This document shows, one piece after another, positions 15,941 to 24,291 of a stretch of 36,917 nucleotides of DNA (positions are counted from its first letter, which is position 1; every line of letters begins with the position of its first letter). The position numbers and the translations under genes are program-made. The notes below the pieces were generated by a model that saw only the letters and a list, made by a program, of their open reading frames with translations, had not been told where the DNA came from and did not search any database. Where the stretch lies: contig JAGVTS010000171.1 of NCBI GenBank assembly GCA_019136685.1, positions 1-36,917 of the forward strand. The letters are read 5' to 3'. This stretch comes from Bacillota bacterium (lineage in GTDB: Bacteria; Bacillota; DTU025).

Positions 15941-17639
15941 TAAGCCCGTTTTCCGCAGTAGAAAAGGCTGAATCTTCGGAATATTAGCAGAATATTCCGA
16001 GAAGGTACTGGCGACACTTATGTCGAACATAACCCCGATACAGAAGCGGGGGGTCGGCATGGCGCTCAAGAATCCAAAGAAGCAGCACCGCGGCACCTTC
16101 AACCCGTATCCATCGGGCGTTTTCACGAGGTGTGAATCGAAGGTGATCGGGAACATCTTTTGTCCCCTTGCCTCCAACAGGGCCAGCATATCGGTAGGCG
16201 AGGTCTGCAAGATACTCGTCCTAAACAGGCTCAACTCTCCCAAGCCGCTGTACAAAGTAGAGGATTGGGCGGATCACGTATCCACCATTGACCTCTTCGG
16301 GATACCTTCCTACCTGCTAAACGATGATAAACTGGGGCGTTGCTCTGCCTCAAGCTCATACGCAACTTCGGGGTCTCCCCTGAGCTCGTGATATGGGATA
16401 GCACATCGTTCTACTTCGAAGGCGCGTACGACGACTCCGAGTTGGTAATGTTCGGATATGCCGTGGAAGGACGAACCGACGCCAAGCGCGTTCGCATCGG
16501 CATGTGCATGGACGCCGGCGCCGGCATACCCCTTACTAGCAGTCGAGAATCAGGCAAAAAGCCCGATTCCGAGCTCGTCGTCGATAACCTTGAGACCTTG
16601 AAAGCCACGTTCAGCGCCGACTATGTTGTGGTAGCAGATAGGTCCCTTGCAAGCGTGAAGAACGTGTTCCTGCTGGACTCAAAGGGCACGAAGTTCGTAG
16701 CCCCGGCCGACGATGACGACTGCTACACTCGGCTGATCCTCGGGACGAGCGACGACGAGTTCCAGGAAACGGACTACAGGTCCAAGGACGGCAAGTCCTT
16801 CTTCATCGCTGAACGGGGCATATGCCTCCATCGGAAGCTTGACGGCGAAGAACGGCAGTACGAGTCCGGGTGGTTTCGCGCAATCGTCATCAAAAGCCCA
16901 AGCAAACTCAAGGTCGACGAGATGAAACTATCCAAAGAGACGGAAACCGTCGACGCCTGGCTGCGCGACGTCCGCGACAACAAGATAAACAGGCGCCGCT
17001 ACAAGAAACTCGAGTATGTAGAAAAGCGGATAGACGCTTTCTTCAGCGGCCCGCTGCGCAGGTATCGAAACATCTATAACCCGAAAGTGATAAGCGACGG
17101 CAACCGTCTCGACTTCAGCTGGTCCATGGACGAAGAGGCACTGCAGAGGCTCATTGCCTTGAACGGCAAGTACGTGGTGATCTCAAACCAAATGGCCCCC
17201 GTCGTCAGCGCCGCCGACATATTCCGCGCTTCCAGACGACGAAGCCATATCGAAACGAGGATGCGATACCTTAAGAGCCAGCTCGAGGTAAGGCCGGTGT
17301 TCCTCGAATCGGAGATGCGGATAAGGGGACTTGCGTTTGTCACGAACCTCGCCCTCGTCGTCTACTGCCTCCTCGAGCACATGCTGAAACAGGCCGCCAT
17401 AGATGAATCGGTGCGTGAGCTGTTCCTCGATTTCGATCAGATCGCCCTGACCAAGGCCAAGCTGCCCAACGGCGCCGAGGTAAGCCACGTTGAAAACGCC
17501 TTGCCCTTTCACTACCGCACCCTCGACAAACTCGGACTCCTGATCGGGGAGTACCATCGCCCTCAAGGGTGATCGCCTTCCATTTCCTCCGTCCTGTGAC
17601 GATCAATTCGATAGGCCCCTACTGCGGAAAATGGACTTA
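15941..17639 (+). mobile_element. IS1634-type insertion sequence (about 1.7 kb) with inverted repeats
   Basis: The ends are marked by imperfect 21-bp inverted repeats, 15941-15961 and 17619-17639. The inner 13 bases TTTTCCGCAGTAG (15949-15961) match the complement of 17619-17631 exactly. The single gene inside is an IS4-group (IS1634/DUF4277) DDE transposase. No obvious target duplication flanks the element. To its right the sequence immediately reads as the middle of an aldolase gene, while to its left lies the TPR gene, so the two sides do not match. That is best explained by a deletion next to the element after insertion. Confidence 0.85.
16020..17572 (+). pseudogene. IS1634-family transposase, frameshifted by internal deletion
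   Basis: The first frame (16020 to about 16330) encodes the DUF4277 region, including LVLNRLNSPKPLYKVEDWAD and LLNDDKLGR. The second frame (from about 16333) resumes at ALLCLKLIRNFGVSPEL and carries the DDE core: D in IWDSTSFYFEGAY, D in VVVADRSLASVKN (usually DRG), and E in HIETRMRYLKSQLEVRPVF. Intact relatives have roughly 15-20 more residues between LNDDrLGR and the LKLI segment. The join near 16333 therefore looks like a small deletion with a -1 frame change. No slippery heptamer is evident. The element is probably unable to move on its own unless frameshifting rescues it. Confidence 0.82.
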
Positions 17640-18007
17640 GAACGGGTATAGATGCGTTGGCGCCTGCTGTCGGGACTGCCCACGGGCTGTACCGGGAAGT
17701 CCCGTGCATCGCACTCGACCTGATATCCGCCATTCGGGATTCGGTGAACGTGCCTCTTGTGCTTCACGGAGGATCCGATCTTTCGGAGGCACTGCTCCGG
17801 CAGGCCATTCGGGCCCGGATTCGGAAGGTGAATGTAGGGACCGACCTGCAGGTGGCGCACGCCAAAGCGCTACGCCGGGCCTTGGCGAGCGACCAAGTGG
17901 CTCCGAACATGCGCGCGGTTCATGCAGCAGCCGCCGCTGCAGTGTGCGATGTGGCCCGCGCCAAGATCAGGATCTGCTCCGGGCGAGGGGGTGGAAACAT
18001 GGGTTAA
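17640..18007 (+). pseudogene. 3' fragment of class II (FbaA/GatY-type) aldolase gene
   Basis: From the very edge of the insertion sequence an open frame reads TGIDALAPAVGTAHGLY, then VNVPLVLHGGSDLSE and KVNVGTDLQVAHAKALR. These are the C-terminal blocks of zinc-dependent class II aldolases (fructose-1,6-bisphosphate or tagatose-bisphosphate type). HGGS carries the third zinc-binding histidine and NVGTDL the phosphate-binding loop. Roughly the first half to 60 percent of the protein (active-site HxDH region) is missing, and no start signal exists. The C-terminus (VARAKIRICSG...) looks intact. It is a truncated, non-functional remnant. Confidence 0.85.
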
Positions 18008-18800: not shown

Positions 18801-19346
18801 TGGCCTTTGACGAGGCCGTACTGAGAATCGTACGGTTCTGCACACACAGGTTTCCCCGAACGCAACCGGCGATGGAACTCACCTTTCCCAGGCGATTGGT
18901 AATCAGCGAACGCGCAGCTAGAACCGCCATAATGATACAGCGCCTCGATAGTGGTCCGCCGGGAACCGCCACCCCCGGGGCTCTGCGATCCCCAAAACGC
19001 CCCCGATCTACTACCATGTGTTTCAGGCGCATCATAGGCAGGATTCATCCCGTACTAGAGAATATGTTCCCCCACAGACTCAACGGTATCATGAGCCGGC
19101 GCAGGGAGCGAGTAGCTTCCGGGGAGTACTTCCGGGGAGTACTTCCGGGGAGAGTCTCTGGGGAGACCTTCTGGGTAGTACTGTGCGACCGTTCGCCTGA
19201 TGTGTGAAGGTATGGCCATGAAGTAGGTCGAAACATCTTCATGTATGTGCGTGGGCGTCACGTTCGGCAGTTCGCATGCACGAGCAGGCGGAGCTGCGAG
19301 CATCATGAGTGCGAAATCGCCCGGGCTTTTGGAGGGTCTGTGCAAG
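18801..19346. other. Intergenic stretch without a supported gene
   Basis: Open frames exist on both strands here, but none shows family motifs or a convincing start. Part of 18801-18920 on the minus strand weakly resembles sequence left of copy C (about 30830-30900), so it may be decayed mobile-element DNA. The promoter of the glycosidase gene must lie in the right half; I could not place it. Confidence 0.5.
19111..19175 (+). repeat. 13-nt short tandem repeat
   Basis: The unit AGTACTTCCGGGG occurs about three times head to tail from 19111 (the first copy has one extra base), followed by two more degenerate units (CTCTGGGGAG, CCTTCTGGGTAG). It lies about 170-235 nt upstream of the phosphodiester glycosidase start. 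It could be a slippage-prone spacer or a multi-site binding region. Confidence 0.6.
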
Positions 19347-20465
19347 ATGATAAGCCGAAAGACGATAGGAGTCCCTGCAGCCCTAGTGGCCCTGCTCGTG
19401 TTGGTGGCGTTGAGCGGGGCCGGGACGGAGTGCGCAACCGCAGCTCTGAAAGGCGCGAGTATCGTATCCGGATCGCAGAGTGTGAAGGTTGGGAGCAAGG
19501 CGTTCCAGGTGAACTACGTCCGGGTGGACCTGGGCGACCCCAGGGTCGGTCTTCGTATGGTTCTGGGGCAGGACAGGGTTGGCGGCACTGAAGACCTTCT
19601 TTCCATGGCGGCGCGAGCGGGCGCACAGGCGGCCATAAACGGGACTTTCTTCAACGCCTACGTCGACGGGCCCTACAAGGATCCTGTTGGAACGTTGATC
19701 CGGGACGGCGAGTTCGTTCACCGCGGAGCTACTGGAACGGTGTTTGCGGTTGCGGATGGAAACGAAGTGAGGATGGAACCTGCACGGTTCAAGATTGTAG
19801 GCGCAACTAACGGCCTATGGGCGTGGCCGGGGAACTGGTACTCGTATTGGATCAACCGGACGCCGACATCGCAGAATTACGCGGGGATTTTCACTCCGGC
19901 ACGAGGACGGCGAACTGGGGCGGCCGACGGAGTATCGGTGGTGGTTAGGGATGGCGCCGTCACCGCGATTGGCCGCGGTGAACAGAAGATCCCGGAGGAT
20001 GGCTACGTCATCAACTTCCAGGGAAGCGAAGAAGGGCTCGCTGCACGTTTCGCAGTTGGGGCCGCTGTCGAGTACAAGGTTGTGATGTCAGATGGCAGCG
20101 ACAGGATAGGGTTCTGGGGGCGAGTCAGCGAAGGCCTTGGGGCAGGCCCTAAGCTGGTGTCAGGGGGAAAGGTGAGCTATTCCGCTGAATCGGCCAAGGC
20201 GGAGGGGTTCACCGAGGCCAAGATCCTCTCCATGTCGTCGGCACGCAGCGGGCTTGCGTTGACGAAAGATGGAAACCTTCTGATGGTGACCTGCGCTGCA
20301 GCGACCATGGCCCAATTCGCCCAGATCATGCAGGCGCTTGGCGCTGTGGAAGCAATGAACCTCGACGGGGGAGCGTCCTCCGGACTGGTGTACGGAGGTA
20401 AGTACTTGACCAGGCCGGGACGCGCCCTCAGCAATGCCCTGGTGGTGCTGGTGGACGGACGGTGA
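19347..20465 (+). CDS. Secreted phosphodiester glycosidase family protein (NAGPA/DUF2233)
   Basis: This protein is of the NAGPA family, named after the enzyme that removes GlcNAc from mannose-6-phosphodiesters; bacterial members act on cell-surface or exopolysaccharide phosphodiesters. The chosen ATG (19347) has GGAGGG about 10 nt upstream and begins a signal peptide (ISRKTIGVPAALVALLVLVA then an ATA-type cleavage site), so the product is exported. Family signatures are AAINGTFFNAY (near residue 92), GTLIRDGEFV, and the C-terminal block EAMNLDGGASSGLVYGGK. Earlier in-frame starts at 19245 and 19305 would put a hydrophilic stretch before the signal peptide and are less likely. Length is 372 aa. 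It is monocistronic as far as seen. Confidence 0.87.
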   Translation: MISRKTIGVPAALVALLVLVALSGAGTECATAALKGASIVSGSQSVKVGSKAFQVNYVRVDLGDPRVGLRMVLGQDRVGGTEDLLSMAARAGAQAAINGTFFNAYVDGPYKDPVGTLIRDGEFVHRGATGTVFAVADGNEVRMEPARFKIVGATNGLWAWPGNWYSYWINRTPTSQNYAGIFTPARGRRTGAADGVSVVVRDGAVTAIGRGEQKIPEDGYVINFQGSEEGLAARFAVGAAVEYKVVMSDGSDRIGFWGRVSEGLGAGPKLVSGGKVSYSAESAKAEGFTEAKILSMSSARSGLALTKDGNLLMVTCAAATMAQFAQIMQALGAVEAMNLDGGASSGLVYGGKYLTRPGRALSNALVVLVDGR

Positions 20466-20524
20466 TGACCAGTGCATATCACCAGTTTGCTGTCAGGCAG
20501 AAGGAAACAGATGGATCATGTTGA

Positions 20525-20755
20525 ATAGCATCATCGGGGCAGAAAGGAAATGGCAGCTGGGAAGATGATGAAACGGTTCGGGTTCATGCCAGGATACAGA
20601 TTCCCGATTTGAAGCTGGACTGTTTCGCCTCTGCGTTCGCCAGAGCATTGGCGTACTACTGCGCGCGAAAGGGCATAGAACTTACTTCCGTTGAGATATC
20701 CTCAGGTAACGATACTGATCTCCCAGGGGCTGAGGGGGAGGCAGAGAATACATGA
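20525..20755 (+). CDS. Small ORF coupled to the next gene, start codon uncertain
   Basis: An open frame from about 20525 to the TGA at 20753-20755 encodes a compositionally ordinary peptide: RVHARIQIPDLKLDCFASAF, then ARALAYYCARKGIELTSVEI. Its stop overlaps the ATG of the next gene as ATGA, with GGGGGAGG before it, the classic sign of coupled translation. No in-frame ATG or GTG exists between the upstream stop (20522-20524) and the conserved-looking part. It must use a rare start (ATA 20525, TTG 20609, CTG 20615), or its 5' end has been lost. The family is not recognised. Confidence 0.5.
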   Translation: MASSGQKGNGSWEDDETVRVHARIQIPDLKLDCFASAFARALAYYCARKGIELTSVEISSGNDTDLPGAEGEAENT

Positions 20756-21315
20756 TCGCACAGTCGAGTAGGATACCACATGACGGCATCTGCCCCTGTA
20801 ACGATTGGACATTCTCCCCTGGTAAGGAACGCAATTGGGCCGGCGATCTTGTAGATATGCGGATCTGGGCAAGAGCTTCTGCGGCAAGCCCTGAAAACAA
20901 CCGAAGAGTTCTCATATCGCTGGCTAGTCATATGCTGCATGGTAGCGGATTGTGTCATGAGTCTCTGCGTAGATGGTTCGCGGGACCAGGGTTGACATGC
21001 GGGGTAGAGGACATGCGTTACGGAGAAGATCTATGCCCTCAGGCAGCTGTCGATTTCGTCCAGCTACTGGGCCGAAAGGGCATAACAGCTGAAGTATACT
21101 GCCTTCCAAGTGCCTGCTCGCACGAGCTAGTGCTGCGCGTGCTGTTTCCGTATAGACCTTCGCTTGAGGAACGAGTTGAGGTAGGCGATGCGATGGGTGA
21201 CCTAATGGACAGTTATCCAGCATTGTCGATCGACTTGATGACTCTGAACCCCCAGGAGCTTGCTCGTCGTCCCCTGCCGCCGTCCGCGGTGCGCGTGGAT
21301 CAGGGGGTGTTGTGA
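20752..21315 (+). CDS. Uncharacterised protein in HEPN-type cassette
   Basis: This 187-aa protein is not recognised as a known family. It has no signal peptide. It is cysteine-containing (CPCNDW near residue 14; CLPSACSHE near 118) with an acidic C-terminal half ending SIDLMTLNPQELARRPLPPS. That last part weakly recalls the C-terminal strand-helix pattern of minimal nucleotidyltransferases that pair with HEPN proteins, but the G-S-x10-DxD core is not visible, so this is only a hint. The ATG is coupled to the upstream small ORF, and the next gene starts 0 nt after its stop, so the three form one operon. Confidence 0.6.
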   Translation: MIAQSSRIPHDGICPCNDWTFSPGKERNWAGDLVDMRIWARASAASPENNRRVLISLASHMLHGSGLCHESLRRWFAGPGLTCGVEDMRYGEDLCPQAAVDFVQLLGRKGITAEVYCLPSACSHELVLRVLFPYRPSLEERVEVGDAMGDLMDSYPALSIDLMTLNPQELARRPLPPSAVRVDQGVL

Positions 21316-21663
21316 TTGCCGGTTGACACTGAGCACGAGTGGCAGGCAACTCATAACGCGCGGCTGCTATGCGAGCCACTTCTTGATCCTCGCAGCACGC
21401 AGTATCCGGATTGGGCAATCAATGTCATGTTCTACAGGGCCGTGCACATAATCGATAAGGCACTGGCCTGCCGCGGTGTTATTGATGTCCGCAACCATGA
21501 GCACCGTAAGAAAAGCATCGCCAGACACCTGCGTGGCTGCTTGGGGTACTTTCAGGCATTTGAAGAGCTGAGCCGGAAGACGCGATACGAGGTCATGAGG
21601 CCAACCCGTACTGACGTGGAAGATGCCCTTCAGCTCCTGAGTAACATCGAACGAGGCGCATGA
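21316..21663 (+). CDS. HEPN-like domain protein
   Basis: This 115-aa all-helical protein starts at a TTG directly after the preceding stop (TGATTG). The pattern PDWAINVMFYRAVHIIDKAL, then NHEHRKKS and FEELSRKTRYE, resembles small HEPN proteins (SAV_6107-like group). In these, a first helix with W-A...FY-A-H is followed by an H-x2-R segment and a Y...L-SR-x-RY helix. HEPN proteins are common RNase toxins or nucleotide-binding partners in toxin-antitoxin and defence modules. The canonical RNase motif R-x4-6-H is not clear, so activity is uncertain. It converges with the GGDEF gene, 35 nt away. Confidence 0.55.
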   Translation: MPVDTEHEWQATHNARLLCEPLLDPRSTQYPDWAINVMFYRAVHIIDKALACRGVIDVRNHEHRKKSIARHLRGCLGYFQAFEELSRKTRYEVMRPTRTDVEDALQLLSNIERGA

Positions 21664-21698: not shown

Positions 21699-23261
21699 TC
21701 ACGGATTGGACCTTGCGCTGCTCAGGACAACTGCGTTTCGGCCCGAGCGCTTGGCCTCGTACAGCGCTCTGTCTGCGTTTTTGATGAGAGACTCTACGTT
21801 AAGTCCGGGGCCTATCGTGCCGCATGCTACGCCAAAACTGGCAGTGACCTTGATTGACTGACTTTCGTAGATCTCCTCAAGGGCGTTGACACTCCTGCGA
21901 AGCCTTTCTGCCAGTGCCACAGCGCCATCTGCGCCTATGTCAGGAATCGCTATGATGAACTCCTCTCCTCCGTATCGTGCGAGGACATCCTGGGCGCGTA
22001 TGTTCTGACTCAGCAGCGATGCGATTCTCTGAAGCACCATGTCGCCGGCTTTATGCCCGTAGGTATCATTCACTACTTTGAAATGATCGATATCCAGCAT
22101 GATCATGGATATAGGGCGGCCGACTCGCTGCCCGACGGTCAACTGCTCCACCTGATCATGGAACGATCTGTAGTTCGCAATTCCGGTCAGTCCGTCGAGA
22201 TCGGCGAGGTCTTTCATGGCTCGAACCATGGTCATCTCTTTGGTGATGTCGGTCATGGTGAGGTACTTGGCGAGCGTTCGTGTGCCGTTGCGCCTGTCAT
22301 TGGGTCGTACGGCGCGGAGGCGCGCCCTGAATACGCGACCCGAGCCATCGTCCAGCGCAATGGCGGTTTCGCTGTCCCGATTCGCCATAGCGAATTCCGC
22401 AATCTCCGGGTTCTTTTCGAAAACTTGAGGGAGAAACTCGCTTGCATAGTCCCTGCCTCGTTTCGGTACGATCTGATACAGCGCCGGGTTGTAGTCGGCA
22501 ACTCGGTTGCTCCTATCGATGATCACTACGATGTCGTCCATGCCGTCGAAGACCCGGCTCTTCGCGATTGACACCAGGTCAAACACTTGACCAGGGCTCA
22601 GCCCTATGAGGAAAAGCGCATTCATGACCATGAACCCGTATGGTGCAAGATCCACGCCATAGGGGCTCAGCCCTGCAGCATATGCGTTGCTGCTCAGCCC
22701 CATCAAGGCGAATCCCGCAAGGAAAAGCCAGTGCCCAGGCCTGAGGTCAGCCGGCGCAGTAATGGCGGACCGAGCCACTACAGCAGCGCCCAAGATAAGG
22801 GCCAAGTTCGCGTATGTCATGGCCACCGTGTACCAGGGGCCGCGCGTGATCTGGACTATGGTCAGCGCCCCCACCTTGGTAAGCAGGAGGTCGGCATAGT
22901 ACAGGTGGTGGAGGTTGGTGGTGTACATACCCACTAGGGTGAGTGTGGAGAAGGCGAGCACGGCCATTACCAGTTTGCTGCCGGGGCGCCGGCGATCGCC
23001 TGCGAACTCAAGGGCGGTAAGCAAGCCGAATGTGGGCAGGAAAGCAACACCCAAGTACTCGATTCTCATACAGACGAGTGCCTCGCTCACTGTGTGCGCA
23101 GTGAGTTCGGAGGCATAGCCGAATGAGTACACGGACGCGGCAATGGCCAAACACGAGAACCACAGGTTCCTTCCTCGCCTGCCCTGAATCATCACGTAGA
23201 TGCCGATGCTTAGCTGAATGATCCCGGATAGTAATAGAGCGCCCACGATCGCGTATCCCAT
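21699..23261 (-). CDS. Membrane diguanylate cyclase (7TM sensor, PAS, GGDEF)
   Basis: This predicted c-di-GMP synthase has an N-terminal seven-helix membrane sensor of the histidine-kinase N-terminal 7TM type (residues about 1-215, including LSPYGVDLAPYGFMVMNALF). A PAS-like segment follows (about 225-345, DDIVVIIDRSNRVADYNPA), then a GGDEF domain with active site GGEEF at residues 431-435. The inhibitory I-site RAQD lies five residues before it, so product feedback is expected. The ATG at 23261 starts at the first membrane helix; the open frame extends upstream without a membrane or domain match. It lies 106 nt downstream of the HAD gene on the same strand. Confidence 0.9.
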   Translation of the reverse strand: MGYAIVGALLLSGIIQLSIGIYVMIQGRRGRNLWFSCLAIAASVYSFGYASELTAHTVSEALVCMRIEYLGVAFLPTFGLLTALEFAGDRRRPGSKLVMAVLAFSTLTLVGMYTTNLHHLYYADLLLTKVGALTIVQITRGPWYTVAMTYANLALILGAAVVARSAITAPADLRPGHWLFLAGFALMGLSSNAYAAGLSPYGVDLAPYGFMVMNALFLIGLSPGQVFDLVSIAKSRVFDGMDDIVVIIDRSNRVADYNPALYQIVPKRGRDYASEFLPQVFEKNPEIAEFAMANRDSETAIALDDGSGRVFRARLRAVRPNDRRNGTRTLAKYLTMTDITKEMTMVRAMKDLADLDGLTGIANYRSFHDQVEQLTVGQRVGRPISMIMLDIDHFKVVNDTYGHKAGDMVLQRIASLLSQNIRAQDVLARYGGEEFIIAIPDIGADGAVALAERLRRSVNALEEIYESQSIKVTASFGVACGTIGPGLNVESLIKNADRALYEAKRSGRNAVVLSSARSNP

Positions 23262-23367
23262 GCTAACACCCTGTCCGGTCTTTGGATTTCGTGCGCAGTC
23301 TGTGACAAACTGTACAATTCGCGTTATCCTCAGCATTTCCTCTGAGAATATTGATGTGCAGCTGCGC

Positions 23368-24291
23368 TCACGTGTCGCGGTATTTGAGCCGGTCCAGGAA
23401 CTCGGGCAGCTCGCCCAGGGCGCATATGAGCGCGTCGGGCTGGCAATCTTGGGGCGACGCTCCGTATGCGTCGGCGGCCATCGTGGTTCGGAATGCAGCA
23501 TCGCGGATCGAGGCGAAGTCCGCGGCGCGGGGCCTGTCTTCAGGGAGCAGGCTGCGCAGGCTGCCTGGAATGTCTCGTCGCAGCCAGATGGAGTAGCCCC
23601 CCGCCGTCTTCGCGCCCCAGGCGTCGTGGATGATGTCGTCTCCTACGTGTATGGGCGGGCTATCTCTCTCTCTCCAGCCTGTCCAGGCCATGTGGAATAT
23701 GCCGGGCTTGGGCTTGGCCGCCTTGGCTTGTTCGGGAGTGATGATCGCGCTGAAGAAGTCGGCCAGCCCCAGGGCTTCCAGCACCGGCGCCTGGTACTTC
23801 AGGTAACCGTTGGTGACCACAGCAAGCGTGTAACCGGCGCTTTTAAGCGCGTCCAGCGCCTCGTATGCTCCTTCGAGGCGCGCTATCATGCCCGGCACTG
23901 TGCAGTAATGGCGTACCAGGGCGGCGATGTCGAAACGGGGGATTTCGGGGAGCACGCCGGGGAGTGTGATGGGCCGCACACCGGAGGGCGACCCGGAGAG
24001 CGCCACGCTCTGCGCTTCTAGGGCTTCAGCCCGAGACGCCAGGTCCACGGCGACGCGCGCTACGATGTCGTCCCAGTCGTAGGCTTCCACGATGCGTCCC
24101 TCAAGCAACCTCTGTCTTGCCTCGTCTATTATCAGCTGCAGCACAACTGCCTCCGGATCCGCGCCTGTTTGGCCGGCTGCTGTGGCCGAGGCGTATGGTT
24201 CCAGCGTCCGTACTACGTGCGGGAACACGCCCCGTCGGAACGGGTTCCGCATGAGCACTCCGTCTAGGTCGAAAGTCACCAGAGCATCCAC
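23368..24291 (-). CDS. HAD superfamily hydrolase
   Basis: This is a cytoplasmic phosphatase of the haloacid dehalogenase superfamily. The four motifs are present: motif I TFDLDGVLM near the N-terminus (nucleophile and general-acid Asp), motif II VTNG, the lysine in AAKPKPGIF, and motif IV HVGDDIIHDAWGAKTAG. A large helical cap lies between motif I and motif II, as in subclass I enzymes. Two GTG starts are possible. The one at 24300 abuts the GAGGA; that at 24291 has 9-nt spacing and gives 307 aa. The C-terminal extension beyond motif IV is about 70 residues. The substrate is unknown. Its divergent partner is the ABC transporter operon, separated by 187 nt. Confidence 0.85.
   Translation of the reverse strand: MDALVTFDLDGVLMRNPFRRGVFPHVVRTLEPYASATAAGQTGADPEAVVLQLIIDEARQRLLEGRIVEAYDWDDIVARVAVDLASRAEALEAQSVALSGSPSGVRPITLPGVLPEIPRFDIAALVRHYCTVPGMIARLEGAYEALDALKSAGYTLAVVTNGYLKYQAPVLEALGLADFFSAIITPEQAKAAKPKPGIFHMAWTGWRERDSPPIHVGDDIIHDAWGAKTAGGYSIWLRRDIPGSLRSLLPEDRPRAADFASIRDAAFRTTMAADAYGASPQDCQPDALICALGELPEFLDRLKYRDT

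Follow-up and report, generated by a model that had tools for sequence, protein, structure and literature searches.

Three short plus-strand genes between NAGPA and 7TM-GGDEF genes

The window, the whole stretch of 36,917 nucleotides that was analysed, comes from a Bacillota-like bacterium whose draft genome measures 2.9 Mb. Its cassette is made up of three short plus-strand frames, lying between a NAGPA gene and a convergent 7TM-GGDEF gene, with the following features:

19245–20465: NAGPA (phosphodiester glycosidase) gene, the upstream neighbour of the cassette
20465–20524, plus strand: short in-frame ORF (MTSAYHQFAVRQKETDGSC, then stop), whose ATG overlaps the NAGPA stop (TGATG)
20525–20755, plus strand: gene 1 remnant, the C-terminal ~66–76 codons of a ~100-aa DUF3467-like gene, with the 5' third missing
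20752–20755, plus strand: ATGA, in which the start of gene 2 overlaps the stop of gene 1 (relatives have GTGA here)
20752–21315, plus strand: gene 2, the HEPN partner protein of 187 aa, opening with the ATG of ATGA; relatives in genomes G003 and G007, and also in G234
20752–21024, plus strand: N-terminal region of gene 2 (~91 aa), variable and modelled with low confidence
21025–21312, plus strand: predicted MNT-like C-terminal domain of gene 2, without GSX10DXD (from AlphaFold2, Foldseek, hhalign and a motif count)
21313–21318, plus strand: TGA of gene 2 (21313–21315), directly followed by the TTG start of gene 3 (21316)
21316–21663, plus strand: gene 3, predicted HEPN domain of 115 aa, with invariant W33, Y40, H61, R90 and Y91
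21699–23501, minus strand: 7TM-GGDEF gene, the convergent neighbour of the cassette

Both junctions, ATGA at 20752–20755 and TGA/TTG at 21313–21318, are exactly as an earlier, sequence-only reading had given them, and the TTG start of gene 3 aligns with the start methionine of its relatives. Across 28 loci the gap between genes 2 and 3, which lie on the same strand, ranges from −50 to +50 nt with a median of 2.5 nt, and it is likewise zero in G234, G003, L043, L044 and L054; the coupling is therefore not due to chance. At these 28 loci the partner gene, in the antitoxin position, lies upstream of the HEPN gene and is coupled to it. Genes 1 and 2 overlap elsewhere too: the nearest relatives have GTGA, and a cyanobacterial CRISPR locus has ATGA. 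Of the three coupled short genes proposed from the sequence, the coupling thus stands and recurs across loci, whereas the first 'small gene' is the remnant of a gene for ~100 aa. A scan for promoters and terminators returned nothing above chance.

The frame of gene 1 is open from 20525 but has no plausible start and, as had been remarked, no ATG or GTG; truncation explains this, the frame being what is left of a conserved DUF3467-like gene. Residues 36–101 of intact gene 1 (queries from G234, G003 and G007) match positions 20552–20749 in tblastn (E = 5e-18), and the N-terminal block has no match in any frame of the window upstream of 20552. NAGPA homology in relatives stops at 20451–20457, directly upstream of the remnant, and positions 20465–20524 form a junction zone where the 5' portion of gene 1 is either lacking or scrambled. 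Gene 1 of the window corresponds to the C-terminal two thirds of a conserved ~100-aa gene, truncated at its 5' end, although an assembly error in the draft genome may be an alternative source of the truncation. A genuine small ORF was rejected on the tblastn match to the longer gene. A plain frameshift was considered as well: tblastn found the missing block in no frame, and only inspection by eye picked out, in a different frame, 'EGNRW' as a degraded echo of the conserved 'EANTW'.

Neither neighbour was retained as part of the system: in G001 and G007 the NAGPA gene is located elsewhere, without the cassette, and relatives of the GGDEF gene sit on other contigs. Further upstream, positions 16340–18007 hold genomic debris, namely a transposase-like ORF and, after it, what looks by eye like a piece of a class II aldolase-like gene, and positions 19116–19180 hold four degenerating copies of a 13-bp tandem-like repeat (CTTCCGGGGAGTA).

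A HEPN fold and an MNT-like partner, without their catalytic motifs

The AlphaFold2 model of gene 3 consists of five helices (pLDDT 94.5, pTM 0.88). Its top five PDB matches in Foldseek are all HEPN proteins or the HepT toxin, with matches to AF_0298 (2hsb), ST0689 (1wol), TT1696 (1ufb) and the HepT toxin SO_3166 (5yep, 6m6u) at probabilities of 0.96–1.00 and TM scores of 0.55–0.71; the E-values are 0.02–0.4, none falling below 0.02. Sequence profile searches of the PDB yielded chance matches only, and PF05168 is matched weakly, by 5 of 33 family members (best 6.8e-5) and not by the window protein. Aligned by hhalign with 17 PF05168 proteins of related genomes, the family gave P = 0.0016 over 120 columns with the H and RY positions paired, a score of 24.9 compared with at most 16.2 in 100 column permutations; the cross-control against MNT proteins gave P = 0.5. 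The third gene had been called HEPN-like, and the agreement of AlphaFold2, Foldseek and hhalign bears this out: gene 3 has the all-helical bundle of 100–120 residues that marks a HEPN protein, and no outcome lacking the HEPN fold was seen. As modelled and aligned, gene 3 is a HEPN domain.

All 33 members have H61, R90 and Y91, which align with the H and RY positions of PF05168; W33 and Y40 are also invariant, and H44, R64, N14 and S86 are near-strictly conserved. RX4HXY occurs in none of the 33, and the Rx4-6H RNase motif has no column-conserved instance in the family, in which the only conserved histidines are N-terminal (H44, H61). RNase activity of gene 3 is uncertain because the HEPN domain lacks Rx4-6H. 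AF0298-like HEPN-T and AbiV proteins vary in the same way, and for them an alternative active site has been proposed in which the R acts together with an H upstream of it (Anantharaman et al., PMC3710099). Like them, gene 3 keeps the R, has lost the H of Rx4-6H and has another conserved H N-terminal to it; they differ in having other partners, and AbiV is likened here by its description alone. H61 and R90 are thus candidate residues for an alternative active site in place of Rx4-6H.

Gene 2, which is 52% identical to its relatives in G003 and G007, was modelled confidently only over its last ~95 residues (AlphaFold2, pLDDT mostly above 90 from residue ~92). This C-terminal domain, of the order helix-strand-strand-helix-strand (α-β-β-α-β), is common to all relatives. 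Some contain little else, such as the 84-aa protein of G002, in which the N-terminal region is missing. The top Foldseek matches include the MntA protein SO_3165 (5yep/7aer, probability 0.97), 6m6w (0.92) and HI0073 (1no5, 0.94), but the scores of OsmC, BolA and MAT folds are just as good; since MNTs are mixed with these domains of similar build, the fold search alone is unspecific. Matches of single members to AMMECR1, DinI, UzuA, HamA and others were set aside as chance, and no BFVD structure matched at E ≤ 0.001. Profile alignment by hhalign with 13 MNTs of related genomes was more informative: it gave P = 0.0017 and a score of 22.6, compared with at most 11.6 in 100 permutations, whereas controls against HEPN (P = 0.31) and OsmC (P = 0.24) were negative. 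By sequence the relationship is nevertheless weak, with an hhalign probability of 15% and P = 0.065 for the non-Bacillota subset alone.

GSX10DXD is absent from all 30 gene 2 relatives and present in all 13 MNT controls from related genomes. The hhalign alignment shows a deletion of ~8 residues at the MNT G-loop, and in the AlphaFold2 model the gene 2 strands that align with those flanking the loop are joined by a short turn; there is no conserved Asp pair. The C-terminal domain is probably a degenerate MNT, an ancestry in which we have moderate confidence. The middle protein had been described as unrecognised and a possible new partner family: that of the window matches no Pfam, NCBIfam or PADLOC family, yet its C-terminal domain resembles the classical MNT partner, which makes it a variant of that partner without the catalytic motif rather than a wholly new kind.

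These residues bear on whether the locus is an ordinary HEPN/MNT (type VII) toxin-antitoxin system, in which a gene 2 with a diverged active site would AMPylate gene 3, possibly on Tyr91. The gene order, HEPN fold and MNT-like domain are the same, Y40 and Y91 are invariant, and the HEPN toxins of Class II keep a conserved Tyr (PMC7641770). We consider such AMPylation unlikely, given the uniform absence of GSX10DXD from a family whose true MNT counterparts all have it, the short turn left at the G-loop position and the missing Asp pair. Since the motif that transfers AMP is missing, gene 2 would instead silence gene 3 by binding.

Distribution, genomic settings and exchange of gene 1

The gene 3 profile matched at 19 places, spread over 17 of the 398 genomes sampled from the phylum, and each phylum locus that was read has a same-strand partner ORF upstream of the HEPN gene. 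Genes 2 and 3 occur together in G003 and G007, of the same bacterial family (50–52% identity), and in G234, of another family of the phylum. The trio is conserved too: genes 1–3 are intact together in these three genomes, and the first ORF of the window is a remnant of that conserved gene. The HEPN protein of the window is 55% identical to that of G234, from the other family, and only 33% identical to that of G001, from the same genus; this far greater distance within the genus points to horizontal transfer. A scan of GTDB contigs added Poribacteria, Acidobacteria, Planctomycetes, Cyanobacteria, Chloroflexi, Bacteroidetes and Halanaerobium, and the gene 2–gene 3 pair occurs in six other phyla. 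These distant relatives were reached only with the HEPN alignment A2; a scan of genome contigs with gene 2 alone and a scan of viral contigs with one HEPN sequence found nothing. One locus (L051) has the HEPN gene without the gene 2 partner, and the window and its relatives are mostly draft MAGs. In G007, an apparent classical PF05168 HEPN and MNT pair (GSVARGDFNQASDIDMI; L014, contig C213, 574–1424) lies ~2 kb from the non-catalytic cassette, convergent with it and beside an S41-peptidase-like gene.

With neither catalytic motif present, the two proteins could form a non-toxic regulatory complex that acts by binding RNA or protein, as has been proposed for the inactive HEPN protein MtlR. We regard this as improbable: the strictly conserved H61, R90 and Y91, with the near-strict H44, R64, N14 and S86, resemble an active site, and the patchy, mobile distribution is unlike that of housekeeping regulators. 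A toxin and its neutralising partner are the preferred reading.

Several settings are those of mobile or defence DNA. In Microcystis phage Mea-Yong924-1 (MZ447863, 2398–3408) the pair lies directly beside the integrase gene, annotated only as hypothetical proteins, and it is also carried on the Dolichospermum plasmid pAfl69. In Iningainema tapete (L047, 2947–6220) and cyanobacterium UBA11370 (L057, 722–6706) it lies amid type III CRISPR-Cas genes, surrounded by csm3/cas7 (III-D-like), PD-DExK, csx21 and cas6 and preceded by a small protein, which in Iningainema is ATGA-coupled. The pair is a possible unlisted accessory CRISPR effector at these two loci; neither family has a convincing PADLOC match, both are absent from the NCBIfam release searched, and the consulted passages of the 2025 CRISPR classification make no mention of the pair. 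Apart from the weak PF05168 matches, no member could be convincingly assigned to a Pfam, NCBIfam or PADLOC family.

Gene 1 is the variable member. Its intact relatives, ~100 aa long in G003, G007 and G234, align with DUF3467 (PF11950) over 66 columns in hhalign (probability 94%, P = 1.3e-7; score 44.0 compared with at most 17.5 in 100 column permutations), a comparison that used only two DUF3467 sequences; a search against Pfam models gave no match at E ≤ 1. The two DUF3467 genes examined differ in having no recognised HEPN neighbour, and a literature search found neither a function of DUF3467 nor a paper pairing it with HEPN. A DUF3467 assignment for the cyanobacterial gene 1 is unsupported (P = 0.41). 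Gene 1 is also broken in G029, was not found at many other loci, and in G052, G095, G090, the second copies in G234 and G131, and L052 its place is taken by an unrelated protein of ~210–250 aa. Because it is broken, replaced or not found in relatives, gene 1 is accessory, and genes 2 and 3 are the core. The replacement family, members of which lie at L025 324–962, L035 286–918, L034 2335–2988 and L052 3598–4269 and also in L036 and L037, has no Pfam, NCBIfam or PADLOC match among the members scanned. In Halanaerobium saccharolyticum (L049, 2761–4996) an apparent IS110-type transposase occupies the position at which a related Halanaerobium strain has a long gene 1, with genes 2 and 3 intact.

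The variability of gene 1, the phage-borne copy and the position of the pair amid csm3/cas7, PD-DExK, csx21 and cas6 genes in two cyanobacteria would also fit an RNA effector that serves defence or is CRISPR-associated, in place of an addiction module: infection would activate a HEPN–partner complex, and gene 1 or the CRISPR effector would be the sensor. This is a minority possibility, less than probable in view of the CRISPR context at only 2 of ~35 loci, the window cassette with no CRISPR or other defence neighbour recognised beside it, and PADLOC, to which no member is known. Silencing of the HEPN protein by a bound gene 2 remains the reading that we prefer.

Relation to known HEPN/MNT systems and a proposed binding-based model

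The cassette follows the usual MNT–HEPN order, partner then HEPN (PMC3710099). With HepT/MntA (Class I, type VII toxin-antitoxin; PF01934 or PF08780 with PF01909) it shares a two-gene operon with the MNT-like partner upstream, and Foldseek matches to both HepT (gene 3) and MntA (gene 2). It differs in that its HEPN protein lacks RX4HXY and its partner lacks GSX10DXD, and in its extra gene 1 and the variable N-terminal extension of the partner. Class II systems combine a PF05168-type HEPN without RX4HXY with a partner carrying GSX10DXD, and had no reported biochemistry in a 2020 study (PMC7641770). Gene 3 fits the HEPN half of this class (PF05168 HEPN with PF01909 MNT), sharing the conserved H, R and Y and the lack of Rx4-6H, and its top structural match, AF_0298 (2hsb), belongs there, although beyond the H and RY positions it is strongly diverged (FYxALH instead of QQAxEK). 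Gene 2 does not fit: partners of both classes keep GSX10DXD, the motif by which HepT is AMPylated in Class I (PMC7641770), whereas the gene 2 family has lost the motif throughout. Because the motif is kept in both classes and absent here, the gene 2–gene 3 family resembles a third, non-enzymatic HEPN/MNT class.

On balance, we favour a HEPN/MNT-like toxin-antitoxin module of a previously unnamed class, probably directed against phages, in which gene 2 neutralises gene 3 by binding. Gene 3 would be the HEPN effector, likely an RNase or RNA-binding toxin. Gene 2, whose product is made immediately beforehand, would keep it inactive, with the MNT-derived domain binding it stably and occluding it. 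Gene 1, truncated in the window genome, would be an accessory open to exchange, one that adjusts or sets off the release; the HEPN protein would be freed once gene 2 is lost or altered, perhaps by way of gene 1. A toxin-antitoxin or antiviral role had been suggested from the sequence; the architecture, the patchy spread and the phage, plasmid and CRISPR contexts agree with it, and the toxicity itself we infer.

A more specific and more tentative form, which we hold to be somewhat doubtful, is that of a mobile tripartite module shared across phyla. Here binding alone would allow the pseudo-enzyme MNT to silence a HEPN toxin whose alternative active site is H61/R90, and the swappable gene 1 proteins (DUF3467-like, the ~210–250-aa family or a type III CRISPR effector) would sense infection and release the toxin.

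So far, neutralisation in HEPN/MNT systems has been described as AMPylation by the GSX10DXD motif. A family that keeps the operon and, according to the profiles and models, the folds, with the enzyme motif lost everywhere, amounts to a natural experiment. The pair, present in two type III CRISPR loci and a temperate phage, is also a candidate defence effector that the searched releases of PADLOC and NCBIfam do not contain. Tests should use intact relatives and not the window locus, in which gene 1 is broken, and the family could show whether MNTs neutralise HEPN proteins by binding alone and what role a HEPN protein without Rx4-6H has.
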